Assembly (NCBI RefSeq): GCF_006861795.1
Contig: NZ_VDGH01000005.1
Location: 124,001-188,000, forward strand
Direction of reading: 5' to 3'
From: Psychrobacillus lasiicapitis
GTDB taxonomy: Bacteria > Bacillota > Bacilli > Bacillales_A > Planococcaceae
DNA: 64,000 nt
Positions 12,438 through 30,513 of this stretch are shown here, one piece after another. Within the stretch, counting starts at the first letter, position 1; every line of letters starts with the position of its first letter. The position numbers and the translations under genes were made by a program. The notes under the pieces were generated by a model, which saw nothing but the letters and a program-made list of their open reading frames with translations, had not been told where the DNA came from and ran no database searches.

Positions 12438-13982
12438 TTATTTCAAATCATCTGCTCGTAAAATATATTGTGCTAATTCCTCCATTTGGTCTGAAATTGC
12501 TCGGTCACTTTCTAACGGAGGGCATATTTTTCTTACCCTTTCTAGGTATTTTCTTGTCGACGTAGCCAGTTGGTTTTCAGCTTTTTCCAAATAAATAGCT
12601 TGTGAAGCACATATTAACTCTATAGCTATTACTCTTGCACTGTTATGAATAATTTCTCGAGCTTGCCTGGATCCGATTGTCCCCATACTAACATGGTCTT
12701 CTTGGTTTGCGGATGTCGGAATAGAGTCAACACTTGCAGGGTGAGCAAGTACTTTATTCTCGGAAACTAGTGCTGCTGCTGCATATTGTGCAACCATCAA
12801 ACCGCATTCCAAGCCTGGATCCATTGCTAAGAAAGGTGATAAGCCACTTAACTGCGGATTAACAAGTCGCTCTGTCCTACGCTCGGAAATATTCGCCCAC
12901 TCAGCTGCTCCTACTTTCAAGAAATCCATTGCTAGTGCAATTGGTTGACCATGGAAATGCCCGCCTGAAATGATTTCTCCACTTTCTAAAATAATTGGAT
13001 TGTCCGTCGCCGAATTTATTTCCACTTTCAATCTATCTTCTACATAATTGAACGCTTGCCAAGAAGCTCCGTGTACTTGCGGTATGCAACGAATAGAGTA
13101 GGCATCTTGCATACGCACTTCTCCTTGGTGCGTAATCCGTTTACTACCTTCCAACCATTTTCTCATTCGTGAAGCAACAAATTCCAATTCAGGATGCGGG
13201 CGCACTGCTAATAATTCCCTATCGAATGCAGAAATGATTCCTTGAAGCGCTTCCATTGTGAGACATGCAGCCATATCTGCAGCTAAGCCAACACGCTCTG
13301 CCTCATTTAGAGCAACTACGCCAACAGCGGACATTGCTTGGGTTCCATTAATTAAAGCAAGCCCTTCCTTTGCTTCTAGCTTAACTGGTTTTAACCCTGC
13401 ACGCTTAAGCGCTTCCTCGCCTGAAAGAACTTCCCCTTCGTACTCTGCTTTTCCTTCACCGATTAATACGATTGCAATATGAGATAACGGCGCCAAGTCA
13501 CCGCTTGCACCAACGGAACCTTTACAAGGAACAACTGGATGTACACCTTTATTAATCATATCGACTAACAATAAAAGCGTGTCTTCTTTAATTCCTGAAA
13601 AGCCTTTCGCTAGTGCATTGGCACGAAGCACCATCATCGCTCTTACTACTGGTTTTGGTAATGGTTCCCCAACACCTACTGCATCTGCACGAAGTAAATT
13701 CAACTGCAATTTCGCAATATCGTCTTTTTCAATTTCAATATCACTTAATTTGCCGAACCCAGTATTTACTCCGTAGATAACTTTCCCGTCTTTCAATTGT
13801 TTTTCAATTCGTTCACGGCTTGCTCTAACTCGAATTAAATCTGCTTCGGGTACGACCACTTTCGCATTTCCAAATACAACACTTTCTATTTTATGTCTAT
13901 CTAACGTAATCCCATCTAGTTCAACTAGTTTGTTTACTAGTGGTCTCTCAAGTTCTTCTACTGTTCTTTCACTTTTCATCAT
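12438..13982 (-). CDS. hutH: Histidine ammonia-lyase family enzyme with altered ring-site residues
   Basis: MIO-type ammonia-lyase of 514 residues. HAL would convert L-histidine to urocanate and ammonia. The ASG triad that cyclises to the MIO electrophile is in SVGASGDLAPLSH (about residues 159-161); YGVNTGFG, ALINGTQAM, QDAYSIRCIPQ and NQEDHVSMGT are all present and favour HAL over PAL. The segment that normally reads SHAxGVG, including the ring-contacting His (His83 in the Pseudomonas enzyme), reads RADAVGVG here, so Ser-His is replaced by Ala-Asp (Asp100). The substrate may therefore be a histidine analogue (inference). A GTG at 13988 abuts AAGGAG; the ATG at 13982 is better placed. It is the last gene of the cluster. 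Confidence 0.88.
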   Translation of the reverse strand: MMKSERTVEELERPLVNKLVELDGITLDRHKIESVVFGNAKVVVPEADLIRVRASRERIEKQLKDGKVIYGVNTGFGKLSDIEIEKDDIAKLQLNLLRADAVGVGEPLPKPVVRAMMVLRANALAKGFSGIKEDTLLLLVDMINKGVHPVVPCKGSVGASGDLAPLSHIAIVLIGEGKAEYEGEVLSGEEALKRAGLKPVKLEAKEGLALINGTQAMSAVGVVALNEAERVGLAADMAACLTMEALQGIISAFDRELLAVRPHPELEFVASRMRKWLEGSKRITHQGEVRMQDAYSIRCIPQVHGASWQAFNYVEDRLKVEINSATDNPIILESGEIISGGHFHGQPIALAMDFLKVGAAEWANISERRTERLVNPQLSGLSPFLAMDPGLECGLMVAQYAAAALVSENKVLAHPASVDSIPTSANQEDHVSMGTIGSRQAREIIHNSARVIAIELICASQAIYLEKAENQLATSTRKYLERVRKICPPLESDRAISDQMEELAQYILRADDLK

Positions 13983-14000
13983 GCTCACTCCTTCTAATGG

Positions 14001-15170
14001 TTAAGCTTGTTTATGAGTTTCATACCATTGTTCAATTAAAGCTGCCGTTAATCTACCGGTATTTATTAAATTTTCTACGCTAATACACTCTCTGAATGAA
14101 TGAATATTTTGGAATCCATTTCCTAGTGTGAGACATGTCAAACCATTTTCGTTTAACACATTCGTATCAGCACCGCCTAGTGTTTCTGTAGTATACGGTT
14201 TTACGTTTATTTTACTAGCTGCCGATTGAACCGTTTTTGTTAATACGTGGTCTTTAGGAATATCAAACCCACTATATTTCTTTTCGATTTTTATTGTTAC
14301 TTTTCCTCTATTTTTCTCAGCAGCTTTATGCATCGTATCTTCCATATGTTTAAGCTGGCGATCTAACTTTTCTTTTGAAAAACTGCGAACTTCACCCGCT
14401 ACTGTCACAGAACCAGGTATAATTGATGTCAACTCGCCGCCTTCCAATATCCCAATATTTGCAAGTGTCTCTTCATCAATCGTACCGAGTTTCATGTTTA
14501 ACAAACCTTCTGCTGCGATGAGAAATGCGCTGTTCCCTTCTTCTGCGTTTAGTGCAATATGAGCGGCATTTCCTTGAACTTCCATCCAAATTCGACTACT
14601 ATATGGTCCTTTTAAAATGATTTGACCAACATTGCCACTACTATCAAAAATATAGCCAACTTTACTTTTTGCCTTACTATAATCCATATGCGTTGCGCCA
14701 ACAAGACCCGGTTGTTCATTGACCGTTAATATAAGCTCAATCGGGCCATGCGGTACACCACTTTCAATAATCGACCGAACCCCTTCTAAGTAGGCAGCTA
14801 AAGCTGCACGGTCATCTGCTCCTAATATCGTTGTGCCATCGGAATAAATAACACCATCCTTAATAACTGGCTGTAGGTTTTTAGTAGGTAATACTGTGTC
14901 CATATGCGTCGAGAAAAATAATGGTGGAATCGATGAATCAGTTCCTTCTTTCCAAGCAATCAAATTACCAACTTCACCATTAAATTTTTTATGTGCATCA
15001 TCAAATTCAAGTGTAAATCCAAGTTCAGTTAGAGCCTTCACCAAATAATCAGCTACTGGTTGTTCCTTCATACTCGGACCATTTATTTTCGCAAGTTCAA
15101 AAAATAGATTTAGTAAACGTTCCTCATTTACTTGATCCGCAGCTGTAGTGGATAATTGATTTTTTGTCAT
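14001..15170 (-). CDS. M20 family metallohydrolase (PepT-like)
   Basis: 389 residues of the M20 zinc peptidase family, closest in pattern to PepT-like members. Seen: FFSTHMDTVLP (metal His and Asp), TILGADDRAALAAYLEGV (bridging Asp), VNEQPGLVGATHMD, TETLGGADTNVLNENG and the C-terminal GFQNIHSFRE with the last metal His. The expected catalytic Glu-Glu of NEEPGL reads EQ here (NEQPGL), a change at a position usually important for catalysis. It lies between hutI and hutH where a hutG might be expected, so it may process a pathway intermediate or supply substrate from a peptide (inference). AGGAGG precedes the ATG. Confidence 0.85.
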   Translation of the reverse strand: MTKNQLSTTAADQVNEERLLNLFFELAKINGPSMKEQPVADYLVKALTELGFTLEFDDAHKKFNGEVGNLIAWKEGTDSSIPPLFFSTHMDTVLPTKNLQPVIKDGVIYSDGTTILGADDRAALAAYLEGVRSIIESGVPHGPIELILTVNEQPGLVGATHMDYSKAKSKVGYIFDSSGNVGQIILKGPYSSRIWMEVQGNAAHIALNAEEGNSAFLIAAEGLLNMKLGTIDEETLANIGILEGGELTSIIPGSVTVAGEVRSFSKEKLDRQLKHMEDTMHKAAEKNRGKVTIKIEKKYSGFDIPKDHVLTKTVQSAASKINVKPYTTETLGGADTNVLNENGLTCLTLGNGFQNIHSFRECISVENLINTGRLTAALIEQWYETHKQA

Positions 15171-15193
15171 TGAAATTCCTCCTATTTTTGAGT

Positions 15194-16447
15194 TTACCTT
15201 CTAACAACAACTTTTCCATCTTTAATAACCGTTTCCACGATATTTGTCCCTAGTTCATATGCAACATGCTTATACGTAGGAATATCCCAAATTTGCAAGT
15301 CAGCCAATTTACCAACTTGAATCACTCCGCGATCGTTTAAATTAAGGGCACGTGCTCCGCCGTAAGTTGCCGCTTTAATGGCCTCTTCTACAGTAAATTT
15401 ATACAATCGGCAGGCAAGATTAATAACAAACTGCATAGATTCCGTGTAACATGCCGGACATAAATCTGTTGCAAGTGCAATGTTCATACCTAAATCGAGC
15501 ATCTTCCTCGCATCAAAAGGCTGTTTATGACCAACTGCAAAGTCAAGTGCTGGCATTAACACACCAGTTACTTCCGATTTTGCGAGCTTTTCCATCACTT
15601 CAACAGGTGTATAATTCAGATGGTCTACGGAAACCATGTTCATCTCAACTGCTAAGTCAGAACCACCGATATAGGAATACGCATCCGCGTGTAATTTAGG
15701 CTTCATCCCATATTGTAATCCTGCTTGTAAGATTTGCTTTGACTCTTCAGCTGTAAAGTATCCTTCGTCACACCATGCATCACAAAATTCAGCAAGTCTT
15801 AACTCGCCAACTTTTGGAATCATATCAAAAATAATGATGTCCAGGTATTCATTTTTGGTCATACCTTCCGGGATACCATGGGCACCTAAAAATGTATTGA
15901 GAACATCCACTGGTGTCTCCTTATTAAGCCTTCTTCCTACTTCAAGGATTTTAATTTCACTTTCTGTGGTCAAACCATATCCACTCTTGCTTTCGATTGT
16001 TGTAATACCATAGTCTAGCATTGATAGCATTCTTTTTTTCGCTTGTTGAAATAACTCTTCTTCCGATGCATGACGTGTGAGTTCGATTGTTCTATTCGGA
16101 CCAGTCGTAATACCAAGTTCTTTCAAGTTTTTAGTAACATTGCCAGCTAGCTTTGCCGCATATTCTTCCACTCGTGATCCATTAAAAACGAGATGTGTAT
16201 GACAATCGACGAACCCCGGTGCGACAATTTTACCAATAGCATTAATCGTTGTTGAATTTTCTAAGTCAAATTGGTTATTTATCTCTTCTTCAGATCCAAC
16301 CCCAACAATGATGTCATCTTTAACAGCTATCCAAGCATTTTGAATAACTCCAATTTCTTGCATACCGTTCCCAATACAGGTAATCGCTTCAGCCGCATTA
16401 CAAATAACTAAATCTACTTTTGTCTTTACTTTAGTATCTGCATTCAT
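15194..16447 (-). CDS. hutI: Imidazolonepropionase-like amidohydrolase (divergent HutI)
   Basis: 417-residue metal-dependent amidohydrolase. HutI would open 4-imidazolone-5-propionate to N-formimino-glutamate. Seen: the metal motif DCHTHLVF (residues 82-88), TTIESKSGYGLTTESEI, TFLGAHGIP, KLHADA (252-256), SVDHL with metal-region His276 and ATDLCPACYTE with Asp328. Compared with the HutI sequences I recall, the Glu/Gln after HAD is Ala256, and the Gly-rich AGGGI substrate loop is replaced by LGITTGPNRTIELTR. It is clearly of the family but may act on a modified ring. AGGAGG precedes the ATG by 7 nt. Confidence 0.85.
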   Translation of the reverse strand: MNADTKVKTKVDLVICNAAEAITCIGNGMQEIGVIQNAWIAVKDDIIVGVGSEEEINNQFDLENSTTINAIGKIVAPGFVDCHTHLVFNGSRVEEYAAKLAGNVTKNLKELGITTGPNRTIELTRHASEEELFQQAKKRMLSMLDYGITTIESKSGYGLTTESEIKILEVGRRLNKETPVDVLNTFLGAHGIPEGMTKNEYLDIIIFDMIPKVGELRLAEFCDAWCDEGYFTAEESKQILQAGLQYGMKPKLHADAYSYIGGSDLAVEMNMVSVDHLNYTPVEVMEKLAKSEVTGVLMPALDFAVGHKQPFDARKMLDLGMNIALATDLCPACYTESMQFVINLACRLYKFTVEEAIKAATYGGARALNLNDRGVIQVGKLADLQIWDIPTYKHVAYELGTNIVETVIKDGKVVVRR

Positions 16448-16499
16448 TCAAATACCTCCTTAAAAAAATATTCAGAGACTCATTTTATTAACATGTAAC

Positions 16500-17849
16500 T
16501 CAAAGGAACAAAAAAGTAAGTGGTGTAACGATGATTAACGTTAACACCGTTCTTAAAAACCAGATTGTCAGTATATGACTCATTTTGATCGGTATTTCTG
16601 TAGAAAGTATGCAAGGTATCAATGCTGAAAAGAAGAGTATGGTTGAAATAGATAGAGAACCAATAATGAATCTAGTTTCTAAACTTGCTTGCAACACTAC
16701 TAGTGACGGTAAGAACATATCTATCAAGTTAATAGCCGCAGCTTTTGCCGCGAGAAATGGTTCCGGAATTTGAAGTACCCATGTTAATGGATAAAAAATA
16801 TAACCAAGATAATCAAATACTGGTGTATGATTGGCCAAAATTAAACCAAATAATCCAATTGACATAATGGATGGTAAAATACCCATCGCCATCACTAATC
16901 CATCTTTAACGTTTACATATATATTTTCTTTCAACTTTGGTGTATTATGAGCCGTTATCATGGCTTGCTCCCACGCGTGCTTTATACGATTTTCCTTAAT
17001 AATTTCTTCCGGAAATCCTTCTTCAGTATAATAATCATCACTTATTTTATTAATAGGCCAGATCCTCACTGTAATTGCAGTCACGACAAAGGTAACTAAA
17101 AAAGTAAGCCAAAAATACAAATTCCAAATATGCATTATATCCAGCGTTTTGGCTACCACAATCATAAATGTTGCTGACACGGTAGAAAAACCTGTTGCAA
17201 TGATGGTAGCTTCTCTCTTTGTATACTTTCCCTCTTTATAAATTCGGTTAGTTATCAATAAACCTATCGAATAACTACCTACAAAAGAGGCAACTGCATC
17301 AATAGCTGATCTTCCCGGAGTTCGCCAAATTGGTCGCATAATCGGTTGCATGAAAATACCGATAAATTCTAGTAATCCATAACCAACAAGCATTGCTAAA
17401 AAAATTGCACCTATTGGAACCAGCACCCCAATAGGAATAAGCAAACTGTAGTACCAATAAGGTCCCATTTCCTCAGCCATCAACCATGCAGGACCCAGTT
17501 CAAATAAGACTAGAAATGCTGCAATGGCTCCTAATATTTTCAAACCAGATAGGACCATTTCAACTTTATTTTTTCGCCAAGTTTTTGTGTAAAATGGGTA
17601 AGCTGCTCCTAAGAAGACAAGAATCATCGCGTAGTATGCACTTGCAGTACTCGACAATGATCGAAGCCATGTAACTAGATGATCTAATGGAATAGAACTT
17701 TTGTCGTTCATTTCAATAGGAATAAAAAACATAAAGATACCAACTGCACTGAAAAAGAAAAATTTGAAAACATTTCGAAACTGGTAAACGCGTCTATCTT
17801 CTCTAGTGGCTATTGGAGAATTATCAATTGTTTCTTGAAGATTATTCAT
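16500..17849 (-). CDS. YjiH family membrane transporter (Gate domain)
   Basis: 449 residues with about ten hydrophobic segments; matches the YjiH family of nucleoside-recognition/Gate-domain membrane proteins. Typical segments: RNVFKFFFFSAVGIFMFFIP near the N-terminus, GRSAIDAVASFVGSYSIGLL and IIATGFSTVSATFMIVVAKT in the gate core. The substrate is not known for the family. Its position between the ABC importer and hutI suggests a second uptake or efflux route for the cluster's substrate or product (inference). Confidence 0.82.
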   Translation of the reverse strand: MNNLQETIDNSPIATREDRRVYQFRNVFKFFFFSAVGIFMFFIPIEMNDKSSIPLDHLVTWLRSLSSTASAYYAMILVFLGAAYPFYTKTWRKNKVEMVLSGLKILGAIAAFLVLFELGPAWLMAEEMGPYWYYSLLIPIGVLVPIGAIFLAMLVGYGLLEFIGIFMQPIMRPIWRTPGRSAIDAVASFVGSYSIGLLITNRIYKEGKYTKREATIIATGFSTVSATFMIVVAKTLDIMHIWNLYFWLTFLVTFVVTAITVRIWPINKISDDYYTEEGFPEEIIKENRIKHAWEQAMITAHNTPKLKENIYVNVKDGLVMAMGILPSIMSIGLFGLILANHTPVFDYLGYIFYPLTWVLQIPEPFLAAKAAAINLIDMFLPSLVVLQASLETRFIIGSLSISTILFFSALIPCILSTEIPIKMSHILTIWFLRTVLTLIIVTPLTFLFL

Positions 17850-17931
17850 ATTTTCACCCCATAGATTGTATTAGCTAATTGAGAAAAAGTGTAAGAATTC
17901 CCTCATTTTTTGAACTGATTAAAACCACAAC

Positions 17932-18654
17932 CTATAAAACTTTACTTAAGAAAGATTTTGTTCGATCTTGCTGTGGATTCTCAAATAATTCTTTCGGGAT
18001 ATTTTCTTCCACAATGTAACCGCCATCCATAAACAAAACTCGATCACCAACTTCTCGAGCAAAACCCATTTCATGTGTCACAACTACCATTGTCATTCCT
18101 TCAAGAGCTAGTTGTTTCATAACTTCTAGTACTTCACCAACCATTTCTGGGTCAAGTGCCGAGGTTGGTTCATCAAAAAGCATAATTTTTGGCTCCATAG
18201 CAAGTGCCCTAGCAATTGCAACTCGCTGTTTTTGTCCACCTGATAAGGAGTCTGGATACGCATCTGCCTTTTCTTTCAACCCGACTTTTCGAAGAAGCTC
18301 TAAACCTCTTTCTCTAGCTTTTTCCGCAGATAACTTTCTTATTCTCATTGGAGCAAGGATAATATTTTCTATCACGGTTTTATGAGGAAATAAGTTAAAT
18401 TGTTGAAATACCATACCCACTTCTGTTCTTACCTTATTAATATCTGTTTTCTTATCTGTAATATCGACACCTTCAATTGAAACGTGTCCAGCGGTAATGG
18501 ATTCAAGCAAATTAAGACATCTTAAGAATGTAGATTTTCCTGATCCGGACGGTCCAATAACTACCACTACTTCTTTTGGACTAATTAATGCATTAATGTC
18601 CTTTAATACTTCGTTGCTCCCAAACGTTTTTTTCAAGTTTTTTACTTCTATCAT
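17932..18654 (-). CDS. Polar amino-acid ABC transporter, ATP-binding protein
   Basis: 240-residue ATPase of the GlnQ/HisP group. Seen: Walker [11 protein letters not shown]-loop FQQFNLFPH, signature [15 protein letters not shown], Walker [14 protein letters not shown] and the H-loop VVTHEMGFA. The open frame extends upstream to 18750 inside the permease gene, but the ATG at 18654 begins the canonical [12 protein letters not shown] and overlaps the permease stop as ATGA (4 bp). With the permease and binding protein it forms a complete importer embedded in the hut-like cluster. Confidence 0.95.
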
Positions 18655-19307
18655 TCTGTCGCTAACCTTCTTTCCAGACGATTTAATAAGTAGCTTAAAG
18701 AGGTAGTTAACACTAGATATATAAGTGCAGCTGTGAGATATGGTTCCCATACCCTGTAATATTGACTTGCCAAAGCCCGTCCATAATACATCAACTCAGG
18801 AGTTGCAACTATTGCTGCAAGGGAGGATTCTTTAATAAGTACAATAAATTCATTCCCTAATGGCGGAATCATTCTTTTAAAAGCTTGTGGCAAGATAACA
18901 TCTTTCATCGATTGAACATGATTCATGCCAAGTGAACGAGCCGCCTCCATTTGTCCCTTATCTATAGACTGTATACCAGCTCTAAAAATTTCTGCTATAT
19001 ATGCCCCTGCAATCAATGAGAGTGCTATAATGCTAGCTACTATCCCGTTTGTATGACCAATTAACATCGGTACCACACCAAAGTGAATTAGTAAGATTTG
19101 CACAAATAATGGTGTGCCACGGAAAAATACAATATAGCAGTTACATATAAACGAAATTAACTTGTTACGAGTCATTTTTCCGAGACCGATGATTAAGCCA
19201 AGTACCGTACCAATTAATATCCCGACAAGTGACAAACCGATTGTCAATAATGTCCCTTTTAAAAAGAAAGGAATATATTCTACTAATATGTCTAGTCTAA
19301 AATCCAT
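18651..19307 (-). CDS. Polar amino-acid ABC transporter, permease
   Basis: 218 residues, His/Glu/Gln/Arg/opine permease type: [20 protein letters not shown] at the start, [11 protein letters not shown], then the EAA coupling loop [20 protein letters not shown]. About five membrane segments. An upstream in-frame ATG exists at 19352, but the one at 19307 has AGGGGGG about 7 nt before it. Only one permease gene is present, so it probably acts as a homodimer. Confidence 0.93.
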
Positions 19308-19333
19308 TGATTTCCCCCCTCGTATGTAAGCTA

Positions 19334-19369
19334 AAATTGCGTAACTGCACATTGGGAGTTACGCAATTT
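19334..19369 (-). terminator. Intercistronic stem-loop between binding protein and permease
   Basis: Perfect 13-bp inverted repeat (AAATTGCGTAACT with its complement) and 10-nt loop, with TTTTAG after it on the minus strand. A partial terminator or processing hairpin here would raise the binding-protein level relative to the membrane subunits (inference). Confidence 0.65.
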
Positions 19370-19380
19370 GATTTATTTAC

Positions 19381-20196
19381 TCATTTCTGTTCCGCTAGTA
19401 TTGTTGCTACATCAGGTTCCGCACCAAACCATTCTTCATAAATCTTTTCATATGTTCCGTTTTCAAGTATTTTGGTTACGGCTACATCAAAATCTGCTTT
19501 AAGCTCGCTACCTTTTGGAAACATAAGCCCATAAAATTCTTTTTCAAAACCTTCCTCATCTTTAATTATGGATAATTTTTTATCGGGATTGTTTTTTGCA
19601 TATTCTTGAACTACTGCATTGTCAGCTACAACAGCATCTGCACCGCCACTTAATAACTCCAAAATAGCTAGATTATTATTATCAAATTTCTTAATATCCT
19701 TATGGTTTTTGCCAAGAATACCTTCAACCGCTTCCTGACCTGTGGTACCCCCTAGAACAGCTACAACTTTGCCCTTTAAATCAGCAGCACTTTTTATATC
19801 ACTACCTTCTGGTACCAAAATTTCATTTGTTGATAAATAATACGGAACAGAAAAATCATAGGTTTGTTCACGTTCGTCATTTATCGTAATTGCACATATA
19901 CCTAAATCGGAAAGCTTATCTTTAACTTCGACAAACAATGGATCCCATCCAACATTTACAAGTTCAATTTCGTAGCCCGCTTCTACTGCAACAGCATTCA
20001 TAAAATCCACGTCAAAACCTGTTATCTCCCCTTTATCCAAAAAAACAAATGGAGCATAGTTTGCTTCAGTCGCGATTTTAAGTTTTTTCTTTTCACCACT
20101 TGTTCCATCGGCTTCAGCATTTGTCCCACTTGAACCACAGGCTGCTAGAATTAAAGAGATGATCATGACAATGATTAGAATAGAAAACTTTTTCAT
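19381..20196 (-). CDS. Polar amino-acid ABC transporter, substrate-binding lipoprotein
   Basis: 271-residue SBP_bac_3 family protein. A lipoprotein signal peptide ends in LAAC (cysteine at residue 20), giving a membrane-anchored extracellular receptor. Family signatures: KIATEANYAPFVFLDKGEITGFDVDFMNAV and the C-terminal YEKIYEEWFG. Ligand identity cannot be read from sequence; the context suggests histidine or a histidine-like compound. AGGGGAC precedes the ATG. Confidence 0.93.
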   Translation of the reverse strand: MKKFSILIIVMIISLILAACGSSGTNAEADGTSGEKKKLKIATEANYAPFVFLDKGEITGFDVDFMNAVAVEAGYEIELVNVGWDPLFVEVKDKLSDLGICAITINDEREQTYDFSVPYYLSTNEILVPEGSDIKSAADLKGKVVAVLGGTTGQEAVEGILGKNHKDIKKFDNNNLAILELLSGGADAVVADNAVVQEYAKNNPDKKLSIIKDEEGFEKEFYGLMFPKGSELKADFDVAVTKILENGTYEKIYEEWFGAEPDVATILAEQK

Positions 20197-20247
20197 TCAA
20201 TTGTCCCCTTATATTTAATAGTTTTCGATCACTGTTTGAAAGCCATT

Positions 20248-20290
20248 AAAAAAGGTAGAGAATATAAAATCTATATGTTCCCTACCTTTT
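20248..20290 (-). terminator. Terminator after the urocanase-like gene
   Basis: Stem of about 8 perfect base pairs (AAAGGTAG with CTACCTTT) extended by an AU-rich imperfect stem, followed on the minus strand by TTTTTT. It would limit transcription from the hutU promoter into the ABC genes. Confidence 0.7.
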
Positions 20291-20302
20291 CATTTTTCCT
20301 AC

Positions 20303-22021
20303 TTACGCATTTACTTCTTTTTTTATGTCTTTTGGACCAAAAGTAGCTTCTCGTTTCCACCACAATGGAATTTTGATACTTTCATTTGTTAGTTTTCCTT
20401 TACCGTTCGCTACATCCTGTGCAGTTTCATAGCCGGCTTGTGCATGTCGAACAACACCAATCCCAGAGTCTACCGTCATTGCAACTTCAAGTCTCATATC
20501 AGATTCTGCCGTTCCATCTGCCACCATTGTTACACCTGTATGAACAGCTTCTCCCATTGAATAGTTTGCTTGAATTGCGATTAAATCACACATACCAACT
20601 GCGTTTAAAAGACCATTTAACATTGGCCAGTCAGAGATTAAATCACTGCCATCTTTCATATTTTCAGATTCAAAAGTTGGATTTACAATAGAACCAGAGT
20701 CTAAGTTGTCACGAGAGAATGCGACTGGACCAGACAATTCACCACGTCTAATCATGTCATTTACTTCAAGCGCAAATGCTTTACGCTGTCCGAATCCCAT
20801 ATAACAAATACGTGCAGGTAAAGCTTCAATTGGAATATGCTTTTTCGCTAATTTAATCCAACGTGTAACGAGCTTATCATCGCTAAATTTTTCTAAAATC
20901 ATATCGTCAATTTTACGTAAATCTTCCGCATCTCCAGATAAGCAAACCCAACGGAATGGTCCACGCCCTTCGCAGAAAAGTGGTCGAATATATTCTGCTA
21001 CGAAACCAGGAAGACGCTTTGCTTCTTTTTCATCCATACCAGCATCAATACATTCTTTGCGGTGACTTGTGCCGTATTCAAATGAATGAACACCTAAATC
21101 CATGAATTTAATAAGTGCTTTCAATTCACGAACCATCGTTTCACGTGCTTTTGCCAAGTACAACTCACGATTTGTATCACGAAGCTCTTCCGCTTCTTTT
21201 ACTGTGTAACCAGCAGGTAAATATGAAATAGGGTCATGTCCTGGTGTCATCGATGTTGAAATGTCAGGAAGCCATCCTTTCTCGAGCACTTCTTCATAAA
21301 TATCTGCAGCATTACCTACAACAGCAATACCAAGTGGTTTCCCTGCTGCCGCATATTCTTTTGCTTTAGTAATTGCTTCATCTAGCGAGTTAGCTAACTC
21401 ATCGATGAATCCTTTTTCAATACGACGTTGAATGATTTCTACGTTTGAATCACAAAGAATCGCTACTCCTCCGTGCATAGTCATCGCGCGTGTTTGGTTT
21501 CCGCCCATCCCACCTGCACCAGCAGTTAAGAGGATTTTCCCTACAAGAGAGTCATCATAATGCAAGCGTGCTATTGCAGAAAGTGTTTCAAAAGTACCTT
21601 GAATAACACCTTGCGTTCCGATATATTCCCATGGAGCAGCTGTATAATTCGCGTAAATTGTTAAGTTTTTATCTTGTAGATCATAGAACGTCGGCCAATC
21701 AGCTTTCATAATATTCGTTGTAGCCATCACAACCGTTGGTGCATATTTGTGGGTTTTAAAAATTGCAACTGGCATTCCAGATTGCACTACAAGTGTCTCA
21801 TCGTCTTCTAATTCTTTTAATGATTTCACAATTGCATGGTAAGATTCCCAGTTACGGGCAGCTTTTCCGATACCACCGTAGATTACAAGCTCTTCTGGTT
21901 TCTCGGCATTTTCCATATTATTTTCGAGCATTCGTAAAATCGATTCTTGTCTCCAACCTTTACAACGTAACTCCGGTCCCCTTTGTGCTTTTACGGAATA
22001 TAAAATTTCTGGTGTTGTCAT
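20303..22021 (-). CDS. hutU: Urocanate hydratase homologue lacking canonical active-site motifs
   Basis: 572 residues, slightly longer than the usual 550-560. Urocanase adds water to urocanate using NAD+. The N-terminal IYGGIGKAARNW, LVVQSGMPVA, the NAD region TAGAGGMGG and GPFRW are kept. However, the region that normally reads DHLDCGSVASPNRETE, including the essential Cys (Cys410 in Pseudomonas), reads DNLDSGSIVNPTFESE with Ser442. The Gly-rich HHGGGVGMG motif is replaced by QANYSMGEAV (485-494), and the signature FQGLPxRICW reads IEALPARICYMG. It is probably a paralogue with a different substrate (inference). It is preceded by a sigma-54 promoter, and GGGGG lies before the ATG. Confidence 0.85.
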   Translation of the reverse strand: MTTPEILYSVKAQRGPELRCKGWRQESILRMLENNMENAEKPEELVIYGGIGKAARNWESYHAIVKSLKELEDDETLVVQSGMPVAIFKTHKYAPTVVMATTNIMKADWPTFYDLQDKNLTIYANYTAAPWEYIGTQGVIQGTFETLSAIARLHYDDSLVGKILLTAGAGGMGGNQTRAMTMHGGVAILCDSNVEIIQRRIEKGFIDELANSLDEAITKAKEYAAAGKPLGIAVVGNAADIYEEVLEKGWLPDISTSMTPGHDPISYLPAGYTVKEAEELRDTNRELYLAKARETMVRELKALIKFMDLGVHSFEYGTSHRKECIDAGMDEKEAKRLPGFVAEYIRPLFCEGRGPFRWVCLSGDAEDLRKIDDMILEKFSDDKLVTRWIKLAKKHIPIEALPARICYMGFGQRKAFALEVNDMIRRGELSGPVAFSRDNLDSGSIVNPTFESENMKDGSDLISDWPMLNGLLNAVGMCDLIAIQANYSMGEAVHTGVTMVADGTAESDMRLEVAMTVDSGIGVVRHAQAGYETAQDVANGKGKLTNESIKIPLWWKREATFGPKDIKKEVNA

Positions 22022-22068: not shown

Positions 22069-22086
22069 ATGCAAGTCTCGTGCCAA
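22069..22086 (-). promoter_or_regulatory. Sigma-54 promoter of the hut-like cluster
   Basis: Minus strand reads TTGGCACGAGACTTGCAT, a full match to the -24/-12 consensus (TGGCAC-N5-TTGCA), with GG and GC spaced by ten bases. The predicted start is about 12 nt further on, leaving a leader of roughly 38 nt before the urocanase-like gene. Confidence 0.92.
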
Positions 22087-22374: not shown

Positions 22375-24096
22375 ATGAGTAATTTGTTTGTCTCTTCAAT
22401 CGGTTCATTCTTAAGAAGTTTTGTAAACGGAATTATTATATTAGATGAACAACACAAAATCCTTTGGCATGATATTGAAGGGGAAATTCCTTTTGAAATC
22501 TCAGTAGGTACTTCGATTTCTAATTATTTTAGCTTGGATAATATTAGCTTTAGTAACAACGAAACTTTTCCACTTTCGCTAAACGGAAAGCGTTTTTCAG
22601 TTGAAGTAAAACTCTTTTCATTGGAAACCACCTATATTTTTTTATGCTTCAAAGAATGGAAGACAAATTTAGTAGATTTAGAAGAAAGATTATATTGTTT
22701 GGAAAGAATTATTGACTCACTTGATGAAGGGGTTATGATGAGTAACTCTGAAGGCGAGATTATTCTCTATAATGAAGCGCAGGAAAAAATGGAAGGATTA
22801 AATAGTCAGGATATTATAGGAAAACATTTGTGGTCTGTTTACAATTACAATCCACAATATTCTGAGCATAAGCACACATTTAAAACAGGTAAACCAATAT
22901 ACTCTAGATATCGGGCACACTCTACAATAAACGGAGTTCCGAAGTATGTTAATTATAGTACTTTTCCAATTCAAAAAGACGGGCATATCATTTCTGTTTT
23001 TTCATTAAGTACAAATGAATCAAAACTTAAAGATCGACTACACCAGACAATTGAGTCAAAAAGACAAGCAAATGTTACTGCACAAGAGAAAGTTTATGCA
23101 AAGAATGGCACGATATATACATTCAAAGATATTAAAGGGAAAAGTCACGCATTATTAAACCTTATGAGGGAAGCACAAAACATAGCCATACACAATACTG
23201 ATACCTTAATAGTTGGCGAAACAGGTACAGGGAAAGAGCTGTTCGCACAAAGCATGCATAACCATAGTAAACGAGCAGATAAACCATTCGTTGCTATAAA
23301 TTGCGCCGCAATTCCTGAAAACTTATTAGAAAGTACTTTGTTTGGTACTGTTAAGGGCGCATATACAGGCGCAACAGATCAGATTGGGCTATTCGAATAT
23401 GCGCAAGATGGCACCTTATTCTTAGACGAAATTAACTCTATGCCTATGACGTTACAATCCAAGTTAATGCGAGTATTACAGGAACGTTTTGTACGAAGGG
23501 TAGGCTCTAATGAAATGACTTCTGTAAAGTGTACAGTCATTAGTGCATGCAATGAAGATCCCGAGCTACTAATTATTGAAAATAAAATGCGCCTTGACTT
23601 GTTTTATAGAATTGCCCATACAAGTCTTTACATCCCACCACTTAGAGAACGTACAGAAGATGTTCATTTTTTTATAAATTACTTTCTCACTTATTATCAA
23701 ACAAAGTTATCTAAAAAGGTTCCAGAGTTATCGGATATACTGCAGAAAAGTTTGCTACAGTATCCTTGGCCAGGTAATATTCGTGAACTGGAACATTTAA
23801 TAGAAAACCTAATAATTCGTGTACCTGAAAATGCTGAGGAAATTGATGTAGATCATCTGCCTTCCTATATGCGCACAAAATTAATCCCATTGTATGCAAT
23901 TGAATCATCACAACAATCTGAAGCAATTCAAAGACCACTAAAGAAAATTTTCAATAATACTGAAAAGCAGTTAATCGAATCGACTTTGAAACTAGTAAAC
24001 TGGAATGTTTCCCAAGCCGCTAAAAAATTGGGAATCACCAGACAAAGCTTGCAATACCATATAAAAAAACATGAGCTTGAAAAACCAACTATTTAA
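22375..24096 (+). CDS. PAS-containing sigma-54-dependent activator (Fis-type HTH)
   Basis: 573 residues. An N-terminal sensory region (1-100) of unclear type is followed by a PAS domain (about 108-215; SLDEGVMMSNSEGEIILYNE), an AAA+ domain with Walker A GETGTGKE (281-288), sigma-54 contact loop GAYTGA (328-333) and Walker B LFLDEI (348-353), and a C-terminal Fis-like helix-turn-helix (VSQAAKKLGITRQSLQYHI). It is divergent from the urocanase-like gene and its -24/-12 promoter, so it very likely activates that cluster on sensing a pathway metabolite. The ATG at 22375 is only 1-2 nt after AAAGGAG; the TTG at 22384 may be the true start. Confidence 0.92.
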   Translation: MSNLFVSSIGSFLRSFVNGIIILDEQHKILWHDIEGEIPFEISVGTSISNYFSLDNISFSNNETFPLSLNGKRFSVEVKLFSLETTYIFLCFKEWKTNLVDLEERLYCLERIIDSLDEGVMMSNSEGEIILYNEAQEKMEGLNSQDIIGKHLWSVYNYNPQYSEHKHTFKTGKPIYSRYRAHSTINGVPKYVNYSTFPIQKDGHIISVFSLSTNESKLKDRLHQTIESKRQANVTAQEKVYAKNGTIYTFKDIKGKSHALLNLMREAQNIAIHNTDTLIVGETGTGKELFAQSMHNHSKRADKPFVAINCAAIPENLLESTLFGTVKGAYTGATDQIGLFEYAQDGTLFLDEINSMPMTLQSKLMRVLQERFVRRVGSNEMTSVKCTVISACNEDPELLIIENKMRLDLFYRIAHTSLYIPPLRERTEDVHFFINYFLTYYQTKLSKKVPELSDILQKSLLQYPWPGNIRELEHLIENLIIRVPENAEEIDVDHLPSYMRTKLIPLYAIESSQQSEAIQRPLKKIFNNTEKQLIESTLKLVNWNVSQAAKKLGITRQSLQYHIKKHELEKPTI

Positions 24097-24143: not shown

Positions 24144-24446
24144 TCAACCTATTTCTAACTCCAACAAAGCAAAGCTTAACGACTTCCCATGTGTATCCAA
24201 TGTTAATGAAGTCGTCACCCCTGTTGCTAAAGCTTGCGAACAAACAAACTGTAGCGCTTGTATGTTCTCAACCTCAAATCGTTTTACTTCCCCTTCTACA
24301 ATTTCTTTTAAATGCTGTTTTACAACATCTGCAGTCAATCTTTCTTTTAGAAACTCGTAATCAGACTTTTCATAAGGGATAACAGATAGCGTAATGGTGT
24401 TTCCTTTGTCCCCTGTTCGACAATGTGCAATTTCATAAAGTTTCAT
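24144..24446 (-). CDS. AtuA-related small protein (ferredoxin-fold domain)
   Basis: 100 residues resembling the C-terminal subdomain of long AtuA/DUF1446 proteins, encoded here as a separate chain. Start MKLYEIAHCRTGDKGNTITLSVIPY contains the typical ARTGDKGN-like motif (CRTGDKGN), and it ends TLDTHGKSLSFALLELEI. It overlaps the AtuA gene by 14 bp and has AGGAG before its ATG, so the two products are probably made in equal amounts and may form a complex. The biochemical role is unknown. Confidence 0.85.
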   Translation of the reverse strand: MKLYEIAHCRTGDKGNTITLSVIPYEKSDYEFLKERLTADVVKQHLKEIVEGEVKRFEVENIQALQFVCSQALATGVTTSLTLDTHGKSLSFALLELEIG

Positions 24447-25761
24447 TGGCTACATACTCCTTTACCTCGGTTTGAGAGCGGACTTGGTCTCGATCTATAA
24501 AAGTAGAAACTACACCAATTACTTCATTTACCACTTTTCTTGCACCCCCACCACCTGCTGGACCATTCGTATAAAGTGCTTCTACTTCTTCTCCTATTAT
24601 TGCTGCTTCTGCCATCGATTTTGCTTTTCCAGCAATCCTTAAACGCACTTCATAAGGATCTGACTCTCGAAAGCTCTTCCGGTGACAAGCATTCACTCCA
24701 ATTAAATCAACCTGAAATTCACCAAATAAGTGACCAATTCTTTCTTGAATAATATCGCCTGCTAGACTAGCCCTTGCCGTTGCATTGGGACCTGCGTAAG
24801 AGATTTCTCCTTCTCCAATATATCCAGCTTCATAGCCGATACTTACTTTTAACTTTTGTGGCATAGGAAGTCCTACTGCTCCATCTACTTTTATCAGCCC
24901 CTCATATATTTCCTCTAGTTTTACCGAAGTAAAATCTGCGATAACATCGGGTGTTATATAGGCATTTGGATCAACCACTTCATATAGTAATTGCTCTTTA
25001 GCTGTACGAAGTGTGATTTGTCCGCCGGTACGCTCTACTTTACTGAACGTCGCCGAGCCGTCAGCTAATATATCCGCAAAAGGAAATCCTAAATTCGCCA
25101 TATCCTTTATATCTTTTTTTCCTGGGTCTGCAAAATATCCGCCTGTTAGTTGGCCAGCACATTCCAATAAATGACCGATTACCGTTCCTTTAGCTAGTAA
25201 GTCATAATCATCTATAGCCCAGTTAAATTCATGAATCATCGGCGCCAAAAATAAAGAAGGATCAGCAATTCGACCTGCAATAATAATTTGTGCATCTGAC
25301 TTTAGTGCATCTAACAGAGCATCCACCCCTATGTAAGCATTTGCGGAAACTATTTGTCCATGTTCTATTAAAGGTTTTTCTGTTTCCCAAGCTAGATCAT
25401 CCGGAGAAATTTTAGTTAACACATCGTCTCCTGTTACAGCGGCAACTTTTACGGTTATATTCAACTCTTTCGCAATTTCTATTATTTTATTTGCTCCGGC
25501 TATCGGATTTGCAGCACCCATATTTGTAATAATCCTTACTTTTTTTCCAGAAATCTTTGGTATCAAAGATCTCATGCGTTTTTCTAACAGTACGTCATAT
25601 CCAGAATGTGCATCTTGTTTTTTTCTTTTTTGTGCTAAAGCAATTGTTCTCTCTGCCAAACATTCTAATACTAAATAGTCTAAATTTGCATGCTCCACTA
25701 ATATTTCTGCTGGTTCAATACGGTCCCCCGCAAAACCCGCACCTGATCCAATTCGTATCAT
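24433..25761 (-). CDS. AtuA/DUF1446 family protein
   Basis: 442 residues of the acyclic-terpene-utilisation AtuA family. Seen: MIRIGSGAGFAGDRIEPAEIL at the start, IITNMGAANPIAGA, IIIAGRIADPSLFLAP, HLLECAGQLTGGYFADPG and GVNACHRKSFRESDPYEVRLR. Family members are linked genetically to terpenoid and hydroxy-acid catabolism, but no reaction is established to my knowledge. The frame opens upstream to 25806 inside citM; the ATG at 25761 starts the conserved sequence and follows GAGGTG, leaving a 10-bp gap after citM. Confidence 0.92.
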   Translation of the reverse strand: MIRIGSGAGFAGDRIEPAEILVEHANLDYLVLECLAERTIALAQKRKKQDAHSGYDVLLEKRMRSLIPKISGKKVRIITNMGAANPIAGANKIIEIAKELNITVKVAAVTGDDVLTKISPDDLAWETEKPLIEHGQIVSANAYIGVDALLDALKSDAQIIIAGRIADPSLFLAPMIHEFNWAIDDYDLLAKGTVIGHLLECAGQLTGGYFADPGKKDIKDMANLGFPFADILADGSATFSKVERTGGQITLRTAKEQLLYEVVDPNAYITPDVIADFTSVKLEEIYEGLIKVDGAVGLPMPQKLKVSIGYEAGYIGEGEISYAGPNATARASLAGDIIQERIGHLFGEFQVDLIGVNACHRKSFRESDPYEVRLRIAGKAKSMAEAAIIGEEVEALYTNGPAGGGGARKVVNEVIGVVSTFIDRDQVRSQTEVKEYVANETL

Positions 25762-25771
25762 TTCATTCACC

Positions 25772-27067
25772 TCAAATTGATATTGCGCCTGTAAGTAGTG
25801 CAACAATTGTCATGACAATTGTTGTACCAAACGCCCATTTAAATATAAATTTCTGATGTTCAAACAAGTCAACCTTCGTTAAACCAATTAATATAAATGT
25901 CGCTGCTGTTAATGGACTTAATGGAAATCCAACCGTCATTTGACCTAGAATTGCTGCTCGGCCAATTTCATGAGGGTTAATCCCTAAATTCGAAGCAGTT
26001 TCACTAATGATCGGCAATACGCCAAAATAGTACGCATCCGGTGTAAACACTAAACTTAAAGGCATACTTGTAATAGCTACGATAGTAGGTAAATAATTAC
26101 CTAATGATTCTGGTATTAAACGAACAAGCGCAGATGCCATCTCACCAATCATGCCAGTCCCATTTAGTATTCCTGTAAAAATACCTGCCGCAAAAATCAT
26201 TGAAGCAACGAGCAATACATTACCTGCATGACTTAAAATACGTGCTTGCTGATCCGCATTTTTTGGATAATTCACCATTAACGCGACAATAAACCCTACG
26301 ATAAATACAACAGGCATTGGAAGCCAAACAAGTAACAAAGCACAAAGCATTAGTAATGTAAGTAATAAGTTAAAGTAAAATAGTTTAGGGCGACGAATCT
26401 TTTTCGTTTCTTCATCTAGTTCCAAATTAAAATCTATTTTCTCTATATCAATAATGCCTAAGCGTTTCCGCTCTTCCCGTCCGATTAAATAACTTGCCAC
26501 CAACACCCAAGCAATACCGGCAACCATCGCTGGTATGACAGGATTAAAAATATCTACTGCTTCTGCATTTAATGTGGTCATCGCACGTGCAGTTGGTCCA
26601 CCCCACGGAATCATGTTCATCACACCTGCTCCTAGGGCAACAACCCCTGCCAAAATAAGTCGATTCATTCCCAACTTTTCATAGATAGGCAGCATAGCTG
26701 TAACAGTAATCATAAATGTGGCAGATCCATTACCGTCCATGTGAACAATCATTGCTAAAAAAACAGTACCCATTACTACTTTTAGCGGATCTCCTTTTAC
26801 GATTTGAATAATCTTTTTAATCATTGGATCAAATAAACCGACATCCATCATTAAACCAAAATACATAATTGCAAAAACTAACATAATTCCCGTTGGAGCT
26901 ACTTGTATCAGTCCATCAAGCATTAACCCTCCAATTTCCGCTCCAAATCCGCCTATAAGACCGAAAATGATTGGGATAATAACTAACGAAACGATCACAG
27001 ATAATTTTTTTGTAAAAATAGCTAATAAAAATACACCAATCGTTAAAAAACCTAATAAAGCTAACAT
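25772..27067 (-). CDS. CitMHS family organic-acid transporter
   Basis: 431 residues with about 11 hydrophobic segments, matching the citrate-Mg2+:H+/citrate-Ca2+:H+ symporter family. Characteristic segments: APTGIMLVFAIMYFGLMMDVGLFDP, HMDGNGSATFMITVTAMLPIY, and the C-terminal FTPDAYYFGVLPIISE and GQMTVGFPLSPLTAATF. Likely takes up an organic acid used by the AtuA proteins encoded next to it; citrate itself is not certain. It is the first gene after a sigma-54 promoter with upstream palindromes. Confidence 0.92.
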   Translation of the reverse strand: MLALLGFLTIGVFLLAIFTKKLSVIVSLVIIPIIFGLIGGFGAEIGGLMLDGLIQVAPTGIMLVFAIMYFGLMMDVGLFDPMIKKIIQIVKGDPLKVVMGTVFLAMIVHMDGNGSATFMITVTAMLPIYEKLGMNRLILAGVVALGAGVMNMIPWGGPTARAMTTLNAEAVDIFNPVIPAMVAGIAWVLVASYLIGREERKRLGIIDIEKIDFNLELDEETKKIRRPKLFYFNLLLTLLMLCALLLVWLPMPVVFIVGFIVALMVNYPKNADQQARILSHAGNVLLVASMIFAAGIFTGILNGTGMIGEMASALVRLIPESLGNYLPTIVAITSMPLSLVFTPDAYYFGVLPIISETASNLGINPHEIGRAAILGQMTVGFPLSPLTAATFILIGLTKVDLFEHQKFIFKWAFGTTIVMTIVALLTGAISI

Positions 27068-27117
27068 CTAATTTCTCACTCCCTTATGTAATACACCCCT
27101 TCGTACAATTTAGTAAT

Positions 27118-27135
27118 ATGCAAGTTCTGTGCCAA
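27118..27135 (-). promoter_or_regulatory. Sigma-54 promoter of the citM-AtuA operon
   Basis: Minus strand reads TTGGCACAGAACTTGCAT, a full match to the -24/-12 consensus. The predicted start leaves a leader of about 40 nt before the transporter ATG at 27067. The promoter is nearly identical to the one at 22069-22086. Confidence 0.92.
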
Positions 27136-27184
27136 CTAAAAAACCTTTTATCTATGCTATTTTTCACTTTTTCGGCAACACGAT

Positions 27185-27202
27185 ATTCTATTTTTTTAGA
27201 AT
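27185..27202. promoter_or_regulatory. Upstream activator palindrome, copy 1
   Basis: ATTCTA-N6-TAGAAT, 18 bp, centred about 60 bp upstream of the -24 element of the citM promoter. Same sequence framework as copies 2 and 3. Confidence 0.65.
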
Positions 27203-27232
27203 GAAAGAATCAATTTGTTTTCATTTCATAAT

Positions 27233-27266
27233 AAAAGCGCAATTTCACGATGGAAATCACGCTTTT
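27233..27266 (-). terminator. Terminator after the second sigma-54 activator gene
   Basis: Imperfect nested hairpin: outer stem AAAAGCG/CGCTTTT, inner stem ATTTC/GAAAT, with TTTTATTATG following on the minus strand. It sits between activator palindromes 1 and 2 and would insulate the citM promoter from readthrough. Confidence 0.65.
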
Positions 27267-27274
27267 AAAATATC

Positions 27275-27292
27275 ATTCTAAAATAATAGAAT
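27275..27292. promoter_or_regulatory. Upstream activator palindrome, copy 2
   Basis: ATTCTA-AAATAA-TAGAAT; the symmetry extends three bases further on each side (27272-27295), making it the longest of the three. Centred 29 bp from copy 3 and 90 bp from copy 1. Confidence 0.7.
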
Positions 27293-27303
27293 GATCCCTC
27301 TTT

Positions 27304-27321
27304 ATTCTATTATTTTAGAAT
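27304..27321. promoter_or_regulatory. Upstream activator palindrome, copy 3
   Basis: ATTCTA-TTATTT-TAGAAT, immediately before the activator gene's stop codon. A further half-site ATTCTAG follows at about 27330, inside the end of the coding sequence. Confidence 0.68.
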
Positions 27322-27327
27322 GAATCT

Positions 27328-28665
27328 CTATTCTAGTTCATACTTACGTATTTTATTATATAAACTGGCTAAGGAAATACCTAAATTATTAGCTACTAAT
27401 GTTCTACCTTCAATATTCTTTTCGTATTGCATAAGCATTTGCTTTATGTACCTAGCTTCCGCTGATGCAACTACTGATTTTAACGTCCCATCAGTTTGAA
27501 TGTTATCTTCTATTATTTGATTTTTCATAACTTCAGGCAAATGATCCATTTCTATTATTCCATTATCCGCTAAGCAGGAAGCATAACTTAACATATTTTT
27601 TAATTCACGTACATTCCCCGGCCAACTATAGGACTGTAAAAACTGCATAACATCCTTACTTAAACGATAGTTGGGCGGTAAAAAGCGTTCTACTAGAAAT
27701 GGGATATCTTCTCTTCGGTTACGTAAAGGAGGTATTGTTAAATGAGCAACATTTAATCGAAAATATAAATCTTGTCTAAATTTATTTTTCTGTGCCATTT
27801 GATTTAAGTCTTGATGTGTTGCGGCGATAATTCGAACATCTACATCTATCTCCGTTGAAGCCCCTATTCTTCGTACGGTTCCTTCCTGTAATACGCGAAG
27901 TAAATTTGCTTGTACATTATAGGATAAGTCACCAATCTCATCTAGAAACAGTGTGCCTTTATTAGCCATTTCAAATAATCCCACTTTACCGCCTTTTTTC
28001 GCGCTAGTAAATGCCCCATCTACATATCCAAACAGTTCACTTTCAATAAGCGTGTCTGGAATGGTAGCACAGTTTACAGCAATGAAGGGATGATTTCTTC
28101 TATCACTGGCTTCATGGATAGATTGGGAAAACAGCTCTTTTCCTGTACCACTTTCTCCAATTAGTAATACTGGCAAATTTGAATCCGCTATCTTTTTTGC
28201 AATATTTTTATTGTCGATCATCTCTGCACTTTGCGTAATAATTTGATCGAATGTATATTTTACACTGGAAAGCGTTGAAATCTTCTCTTGTAATTCGATC
28301 ACTTGCCTAACTTTTTTATTTAGTTCATTGGATAGTTCCTTTACTTCATTAATACTTTTACAAACAGACACCGCACCAATAATTTTACCGTTATCTTCAA
28401 TAGGAGCCATATCCACTACGTATGCTCGACCATTAATCTCACGATAAACACCAACCCTCGTTTTCCCGTCCTTCAATGTTGACGGTAATTGAGCGCCTGG
28501 TCTATATGCAGAAAGTAGCTTTCCTATTATTTCTTTCCCAACCCCTGTGATCCTAGAATATTCCGGGTTAATAAATAGAACTTTTTCAAACTCATCGATG
28601 ACTAATATTCCATCATTTATCGATGTGATCACTTGTTCCCACCATTTGTTTGAATAAATTCTCAT
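27328..28665 (-). CDS. PAS-containing sigma-54-dependent activator with GAFTSA loop
   Basis: 445 residues. PAS domain about 10-110 (INDGILVIDEFEKVLFINPEYSRITG), short coiled coil 108-132, AAA+ domain with Walker A GESGTGKE (170-177), Walker B LFLDEI (239-244), R-finger region, and a C-terminal Fis-type helix-turn-helix (TLVANNLGISLASLYNKI). The sigma-54 contact motif, normally GAFTGA, reads GAFTSA (217-222). The gene lies directly upstream of the citM-AtuA operon in the same direction, with three palindromes and a sigma-54 promoter between, so it very probably controls that operon. GGAGGGG precedes the ATG. Confidence 0.93.
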   Translation of the reverse strand: MRIYSNKWWEQVITSINDGILVIDEFEKVLFINPEYSRITGVGKEIIGKLLSAYRPGAQLPSTLKDGKTRVGVYREINGRAYVVDMAPIEDNGKIIGAVSVCKSINEVKELSNELNKKVRQVIELQEKISTLSSVKYTFDQIITQSAEMIDNKNIAKKIADSNLPVLLIGESGTGKELFSQSIHEASDRRNHPFIAVNCATIPDTLIESELFGYVDGAFTSAKKGGKVGLFEMANKGTLFLDEIGDLSYNVQANLLRVLQEGTVRRIGASTEIDVDVRIIAATHQDLNQMAQKNKFRQDLYFRLNVAHLTIPPLRNRREDIPFLVERFLPPNYRLSKDVMQFLQSYSWPGNVRELKNMLSYASCLADNGIIEMDHLPEVMKNQIIEDNIQTDGTLKSVVASAEARYIKQMLMQYEKNIEGRTLVANNLGISLASLYNKIRKYELE

Positions 28666-28765
28666 GGCTCCCCTCCTGACTGCTGTTAGATACTGTATAA
28701 CAATAATATAGCATCTTTTGAGGTTGCCTGTTATTGCTTAGCTCCAGTTGATCGTGCAGAGAATA

Positions 28766-28810
28766 GTACCAGGTTCTAAAACAATTCATAATTGTGTTAG
28801 AACCTGGTAC
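28766..28810 (-). terminator. Long stem-loop after the AGCS symporter gene
   Basis: A 21-bp stem with a single mismatch and a 3-nt loop (GTACCAGGTTCTAA arm). It begins 6 nt after the symporter stop. There is no T run, so it may act as a 3' stabilising hairpin as much as a terminator. Confidence 0.6.
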
Positions 28811-28815
28811 CTAAT

Positions 28816-30267: not shown

Positions 30268-30462
30268 AACAACACTCCTGTCTATTTGTTATTTTTAGGT
30301 CACAAAATCCACTTAAGATTCAATGTGGAACGAACGTTTTACAACACCCAAATATACCAACCATTCAATATTTTCTGATATCAAAATAGATAAATAGCCC
30401 TCTCAGTAACCTTTGTGGAAGTCACTTTTTTTAAGTGATTTGTAACTTGCATTCTAAAATCT

Positions 30463-30501
30463 CCGAGTTAGCTAATAATTTGATAGACAAAACTAACTCG
30501 G
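30463..30501 (-). terminator. Possible terminator after M20 amidohydrolase gene
   Basis: A perfect 9-bp stem (CCGAGTTAG with CTAACTCGG) and 21-nt loop, followed on the minus strand by AGATTTTAG. A second small hairpin (TCACTT/AAGTGA) follows at about 30422-30438. The 246-bp gap to the symporter gene shows no clear promoter. Confidence 0.5.
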
Positions 30502-30513
30502 TAAAAATTTTAT

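Follow-up and report, generated by a model that had tools for sequence, protein, structure and literature searches.

The systems closest to the locus described here are the canonical degradation of histidine by HutH, HutU, HutI and HutG, its folate-linked form, in which formimidoylglutamate and its folate adduct are the substrates of FtcD and a cyclodeaminase, and the degradation of Ntau-methylhistidine, an amino acid that is released from animal muscle proteins and about the fate of which, in soils as well as in anaerobic habitats, the literature searched has little to say. A pathway for the latter compound is named in the title of 'Bacterial Degradation of Ntau-Methylhistidine' (Beliaeva, Atac and Seebeck 2022, ACS Chem Biol 17:1989), as given in a citation of that paper. 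Here, a window of 64,000 nucleotides from the soil bacterium Psychrobacillus lasiicapitis (contig NZ_VDGH01000005.1, positions 124,001 to 188,000; coordinates below refer to this window) was analyzed, which contains a gene cluster resembling hut. Based on comparisons of its sequence with those of its relatives we propose, with a probability of about 0.84, that this cluster is an inducible accessory operon for the import and degradation of Ntau-methylhistidine. We regard the cluster as a member of the known pathway; the newest part of the finding is a fourth step for which the related loci contain at most one of two mutually exclusive types of genes.

The cluster runs on the minus strand from 22021 to 12438 and comprises genes for a urocanase-like protein, a solute-binding protein, an ABC permease, an ATPase, a Gate/YjiH carrier, a HutI-like enzyme, an M20 hydrolase and a histidine ammonia-lyase (HAL)-like enzyme. 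All eight genes point in the same direction and lie downstream of a perfect sigma-54 promoter, and their open reading frames are found where the first-pass annotation had placed them. The cluster has the three fold families, the order of reactions and scores above the NCBIfam hut cut-offs in common with the canonical hut system, but differs from it in an altered urocanase motif, a Glu to Ala exchange in HutI and the lack of hutG in the cluster. The search for a second, canonical hut set in the same genome, which had been suggested as a check at the first pass, was positive. On another contig hutU, hutI and hutH lie together and encode the motifs HHGGGVG, HADE and Ser-His, respectively, and hutG (L082; TIGR01227, 295.7 bits, cut-off 229.15) is present on a third contig, so that the reported absence of hutG holds for the cluster and not for the genome. 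A full canonical set is likewise present in genome G054. The window cluster is an accessory second hut set, and since hutU, hutI, hutH and hutG are encoded elsewhere in the genome, the degradation of histidine does not depend on it.

To compare the enzymes, a scan of named genomes was used, in which the best 80 among 393 relatives yielded 75 loci; the same trio of HAL-, urocanase- and HutI-like proteins recurs in these loci, and the urocanase is 69-99% identical across them. Canonical enzymes of the same order (28 urocanases, 28 HALs and 30 HutIs) served as controls. The urocanase-like protein (20303..22021, minus strand), the proposed N(tele)-methylurocanate hydratase of step 2, carries Q-ANYSMG at the place of the canonical HHGGGVGMG. 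Q, N, Y and S are each found in 84/84 rows of the alignment (83 from 73 loci and one from the order sample; L076 has no usable urocanase open reading frame) and are absent from the 28 controls, all of which contain HHGGGVG. In the FQGLP signature F, Q and G are replaced by I (83/84 rows), E (84/84) and A (73/84). While these two changes had been correctly noted at the first pass, the accompanying claim that Ser442 unusually replaces an essential Cys has to be withdrawn. Ser is the usual residue at this position in canonical urocanases (28/28 controls, the HutU of the canonical set in the own genome and PDB 1x87), and Ser442 was therefore rejected as a marker of a changed substrate. The protein reaches 651.3 bits with the NCBIfam hutU equivalog (cut-off 375). 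An orthologue with 76% identity (P0085) is called 'N(tele)-methylurocanate hydratase' by a source, which is a name only. Columns conserved within the cluster set and within the controls yet differing between them number 117 for urocanase, 34 for HutI and 11 for HAL (gap columns included; the HAL set contained two misfiled rows).

Two further observations concern urocanases in other loci. Two urocanase-like open reading frames or pieces per cluster were seen in L009, L012, L020, L021, L026, L034, L039, L064, G480 and G482; some of them may be a gene split by a frameshift, and the two copies in G480 and in G482 show 95-97% identity. A urocanase of a third type (QHGGGVGIG or QNGGGVGIG, RDHSE) is encoded at L186:5159-10872 and L187:6952-14047 next to genes for a CaiB-type CoA-transferase, an acyl-CoA dehydrogenase and a Gate carrier. 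As a guess, it could possibly belong to a route for imidazolepropionate.

The HutI-like amidohydrolase (15194..16447, minus strand), the proposed Ntau-methylimidazolonepropionase of step 3, contains HADA instead of HADE. As stated in the first-pass annotation, Ala256 follows HAD and the AGGG loop (given there as AGGGI) is absent. In the relatives, this position is Ala in 66/67 and Gly in 1/67 rows, as compared to Glu in 30/30 controls. The lost Glu presumably faces the ring nitrogen of the bond that is cleaved. The window protein retains HxH, Arg, Tyr, both further His, the third metal His and Asp, which we assume to have their established roles; across the relatives the Zn-binding and other catalytic positions are kept, and the catalytic Asp of the window protein corresponds to Asn in 24/67 of them. 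The score with the NCBIfam hutI equivalog is 377.6 bits (cut-off 298.15), and an orthologue with 74% identity (P0221) is named, again by name only, 'Ntau-methylimidazolonepropionase' by a source. The names of both orthologues are thus those of enzymes of the Ntau-methylhistidine pathway of Beliaeva et al. (2022). As a separate observation, G038 contains a second HutI, 72% identical to the canonical one, beside a distant HutG-like gene and away from the hut operon (L180:4257-6528).

The HAL-like ammonia lyase (12438..13988, minus strand, with a GTG start as listed), which would catalyze step 1 as Ntau-methylhistidine ammonia lyase, has the dyad Ala101-Asp102 as compared to Ser-His in the 28 HALs counted as canonical controls. 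It retains the methylidene-imidazolone (MIO) triad and the active-site Tyr, Asn, Gln, Tyr, Arg, Phe and Glu, and reaches 658.3 bits with the NCBIfam hutH equivalog (cut-off 539.15). The roles of these residues are as we presume them, and are also given in PMC11432326. In one HAL described there, exchange of His for Leu at the position of His83 abolished activity with histidine. The earlier statement that all core enzymes of the cluster lack canonical residues is correct in that positions are changed in all three of them, but too strong, as most catalytic residues are kept.

In the proposed pathway, the HAL-like enzyme would remove ammonia from Ntau-methylhistidine to give N(tele)-methylurocanate, the urocanase-like enzyme would hydrate the latter to an N-methylated imidazolonepropionate, and the HutI-like enzyme would open the ring to yield N-(N'-methylformimidoyl)-glutamate. 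In Bacilli, the M20 hydrolase would then split this compound, most likely into glutamate and N-methylformamide; in the other lineages, tetrahydrofolate would receive the one-carbon unit through FtcD, and methylamine would be set free by the cyclodeaminase. The amino acid would be taken up by the ABC importer and the Gate carrier, and a PrdR-like activator would turn on transcription at the sigma-54 promoter. The position of the substituent is deduced as follows. The FtcD and FTCD_C genes in loci outside Bacilli imply a formimidoyl-type glutamate as the product of step 3 and hence a hydrogen at C2 of the ring, which argues against 2-thio compounds. Step 1 would already remove any substituent carried by the alpha nitrogen, which leaves a ring-nitrogen substituent as the remaining option; hercynine and other alpha-N-methyl substrates were rejected, since steps 2 and 3 would in that case start from ordinary urocanate. 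The substituent is therefore probably located on a ring nitrogen rather than at C2. Ntau is preferred because it leads straight to glutamate, while Npi-methylhistidine would end as N-methylglutamate. The first-pass annotation had suggested a histidine analogue, possibly released from a peptide, as the substrate. The core of this suggestion, the breakdown of a ring-N-methylated histidine through an additional hut set that is linked to import, explains the data best and agrees with the names given to the orthologues; the pathway, however, is not new, the HAL change does not suffice as proof and the release from a peptide is unsupported.

Several points weigh against Ntau-methylhistidine as the substrate. 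All three enzymes score above the canonical hut equivalog cut-offs, the source names of the orthologues point to tele/tau but are not proof, and Ntau is preferred over Npi by inference only. Further points concern HAL. Its dyad varies within the clade: Ala-Asp is found in 42, Ser-Cys in 7, Ser-Asp in 2, Ala-Cys in 2 and Leu-Cys in 1 of 54 cluster HALs, and the position of His83 is Asp in 44/54 and Cys in 10/54. (The clean count of 54 includes the long-branched L068; a 56-row variant of the set also held L146 and L147 from canonical-type operons, and HALs split by the caller of open reading frames fell to the length filter.) Among 30 HAL loci from the order, 28 have Ser-His and two Ser-Asp, the latter having been left out of the controls for their better match to the window HAL. 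In 6/6 genomes of another genus of the family, which include the sources of these two, a Ser-Asp HAL with 71% identity to the window HAL is encoded in operons together with an HHGGGVG HutU and a HADE HutI, so that the Ser-His dyad, which is not found in the window HAL, separates the two sets imperfectly. In these six (L178, L179, L181, L182, L183 and L184) the Ser-Asp HAL of the methylhistidine-cluster type is the only HAL match per genome. In a tree containing 18 of the 54 cluster HALs, the Ser-Asp HALs branch within the cluster HALs of Bacilli (fork 100/100) with L040 as their sister (94/90). A HAL of the window type may act on histidine itself. As Ser-Asp HALs occur in otherwise canonical operons, the HAL change alone is no proof of a new substrate; the Ala-Asp for Ser-His exchange emphasized in the first-pass annotation is present but weakened as evidence, and the dyad was rejected as a stand-alone marker. 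The argument for a new substrate is carried by the changes in urocanase and HutI. Taken with the catalytic residues that are kept, the HAL and cut-off data could also mean that the cluster is a second pathway for histidine and urocanate, the enzymes of which have merely drifted, e.g. under another regulator. We see very little chance for this, as the urocanase and HutI changes are fixed across the clade in several phyla, do not vary over 84 and 67 rows, respectively, which indicates constraint and not drift, and are absent from the controls, and as full canonical sets are encoded in the own genome and in G054.

A 2-thio substrate, e.g. ergothioneine or its S-methyl form, comes into consideration since the thiourocanate and S-methyl thiourocanate hydratases (NF058530 and NF058531) are likewise diverged urocanases for a modified imidazole with similar bit scores; with the S-methyl model the window urocanase reaches 652.7 bits, about as much as with hutU. 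However, this score is below the cut-off of 880, as are the 613.7 bits obtained with NF058530 below its cut-off of 930, and four further cluster urocanases also stay below both. The window HAL is far nearer to histidine lyases of known structure (best match 7tqr, 429 bits) than to the ergothionase 6s7j (228 bits), and the FTCD genes of the sister loci would need a C2-H carbon. The probability of a 2-thio substrate thus appears almost negligible, and ergothioneine and S-methyl ergothioneine were rejected on the model cut-offs and the FTCD neighbours. A further alternative is Npi-methylhistidine or histidine with another group at a ring nitrogen, which would undergo the same chemistry, with an N-substituted glutamate as the product in the Npi case. 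The Gln-Asn-Tyr-Ser motif is fixed, and the sequence changes alone cannot place the substituent. The tele/tau names of the orthologues argue against Npi, and no N-methylglutamate enzyme was recognized among the representatives of the neighbour families scanned. As we understand the chemistry, the lost Glu of HutI would also suit tau better. Overall, such a substrate is improbable.

For the fourth step, the window cluster encodes an M20/PepT-like metallohydrolase (14001..15170, minus strand), the proposed N-(methylformimidoyl)glutamate hydrolase. It reads NEQPG in place of NEEPG, as recognized at the first pass, with Gln153 conserved in 40/40 cluster M20s and in 120/120 nearest homologues (the two sets overlap). 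In the PepT-like paralogue of the same genome (GEESG), the second Glu of the Glu-Glu pair, which we take to be a metal ligand, is kept. With 312.7 bits (cut-off 274), the enzyme is assigned to the PepT-like family TIGR01883, and it has the fold family in common with the PepT-like peptidases PDB 3gb0 (272 bits) and 3rza (244 bits), which have GEESG at the metal site. Among the 75 loci, an M20 gene was found in 41, FTCD_C and/or FtcD in 25, both in none and neither in nine. In Bacilli, the gene order is urocanase, transporters, HutI, M20, transporter and HAL; in the lineages outside Bacilli it is mostly urocanase, HutI, FTCD_C, FtcD and HAL (FTCD genes identified by family models). Several of the nine loci with neither gene are short or cut, L065 and L069 have genes for urocanase and HutI but neither of the two types in the stretch covered, and the contig of L027 probably contains an M20 gene, as P0268 is from a contig of the same species and of equal length. 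The family assignment and the hutG gene elsewhere in the genome would fit an M20 that frees methylhistidine from a peptide, with step 4 being left to HutG. This arrangement, which includes the peptidase role proposed at the first pass, is unlikely, because M20 and FTCD are mutually exclusive in 66/66 loci with either and because the Glu kept in the paralogue is Gln in all cluster M20s. The M20 gene occupies the position held outside Bacilli by FtcD and FTCD_C of folate-linked histidine degradation, both absent from the window cluster, and therefore more likely acts on the ring-opened product. Thus, M20 probably catalyzes step 4 in Bacilli.

In the urocanase tree, the M20 loci and L027 form one clade (42 rows, SH-aLRT 99) that is nested among the FTCD loci, with the canonical enzymes apart (100). 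This topology is consistent with FTCD having been replaced by M20 once. We give an even chance to the more specific proposal that the Bacilli branch swapped once two folate-linked enzymes for one M20 with a lost metal ligand, which would be a new formimidoylglutamase-like enzyme releasing N-methylformamide (or methylamine) from N-(methylformimidoyl)glutamate. The own genome contains neither an FTCD_C nor an FGase family gene, which favours direct release of glutamate. A HutF-type reaction of M20 to N-formylglutamate and methylamine is less likely, as an FGase gene is lacking in the own genome; M20 families can hold other deformylases. Among the matches listed in the literature search (titles and abstract openings), no paper on an M20/FTCD exchange was found. 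In addition, MttB-family methyltransferase genes without internal stop were observed in 8/75 loci, all outside Bacilli (L049, L053, L054, L055, L061, L074, L077 and L078). They are near or adjoin the core genes in L054, L055, L061, L074 and L077, with a corrinoid protein gene also in L054, and may mean corrinoid-dependent demethylation of methylated histidine in anaerobes.

The sigma-54 -24/-12 promoter TGGCACGAGACTTGCA (22070..22085, minus strand) has zero mismatches and is located 64 bases upstream of the urocanase start. Its assigned regulator, a PrdR-like sigma-54 activator with a PAS domain, is encoded divergently (22375..24096, plus strand). With a GG-N10-GC core required, sites scoring at least 10 of 12 were found before urocanase in 48/72 regions (that of the window, and that of one urocanase per locus for 71/75 loci), as compared to 3.1% of shuffles. 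The importer genes, all on the minus strand, encode a lipoprotein-like solute-binding protein of the SBP_bac_3 family (19381..20196), a polar amino acid ABC permease (18651..19352) and the ATPase (17932..18654). The reading frame listed for the ATPase begins at 18750, which gives an overlap of 100 bases with the permease; an internal Met near 18654 is probably the actual start. They are followed by the Gate/YjiH-type membrane carrier (16500..17849, minus strand). Within four genes of the core, the 75 loci contain Gate carriers (22), Na+/H+-antiporter-family genes (29), polar amino acid binding proteins (14) and others, and none was recognized in 25. The Siminovitchia terrae locus L035, for instance, has the same cluster genes except for the ABC importer, and an antiporter-family gene in addition. 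Such an exchange of carriers would be expected of an amino acid catabolic operon. Another perfect sigma-54 site (27119-27134, minus strand) is located before genes for a CitMHS-type carrier and an AtuA-family protein; further up follow a sigma-54 activator (27328-28665), a carrier (28816-30267) and an M20-like amidohydrolase (30514-31695). The region 24433-31695 is a putative neighbouring sigma-54 catabolic island.

The nearest named loci are from Psychrobacillus, with 97-99% identical urocanases. The distribution of the cluster is patchy, as it is present in 7/19 genomes of the genus, 2/120 of the order (matches of at least 91%) and 3/398 of the class, the own genome being counted in each case. 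Since annotation pipelines label its genes plain hut, the pathway escapes notice in many genomes; the combination of Q-ANYSMG and HADA provides a simple marker that separates the methylhistidine cluster from plain hut. The predicted end products differ by lineage, being methylamine and a folate one-carbon unit, or N-methylformamide. The exchange of FTCD for M20 offers a clean natural experiment on the replacement of a pathway step and, if our assignment is true, a peptidase fold would have taken over a step of amino acid catabolism.

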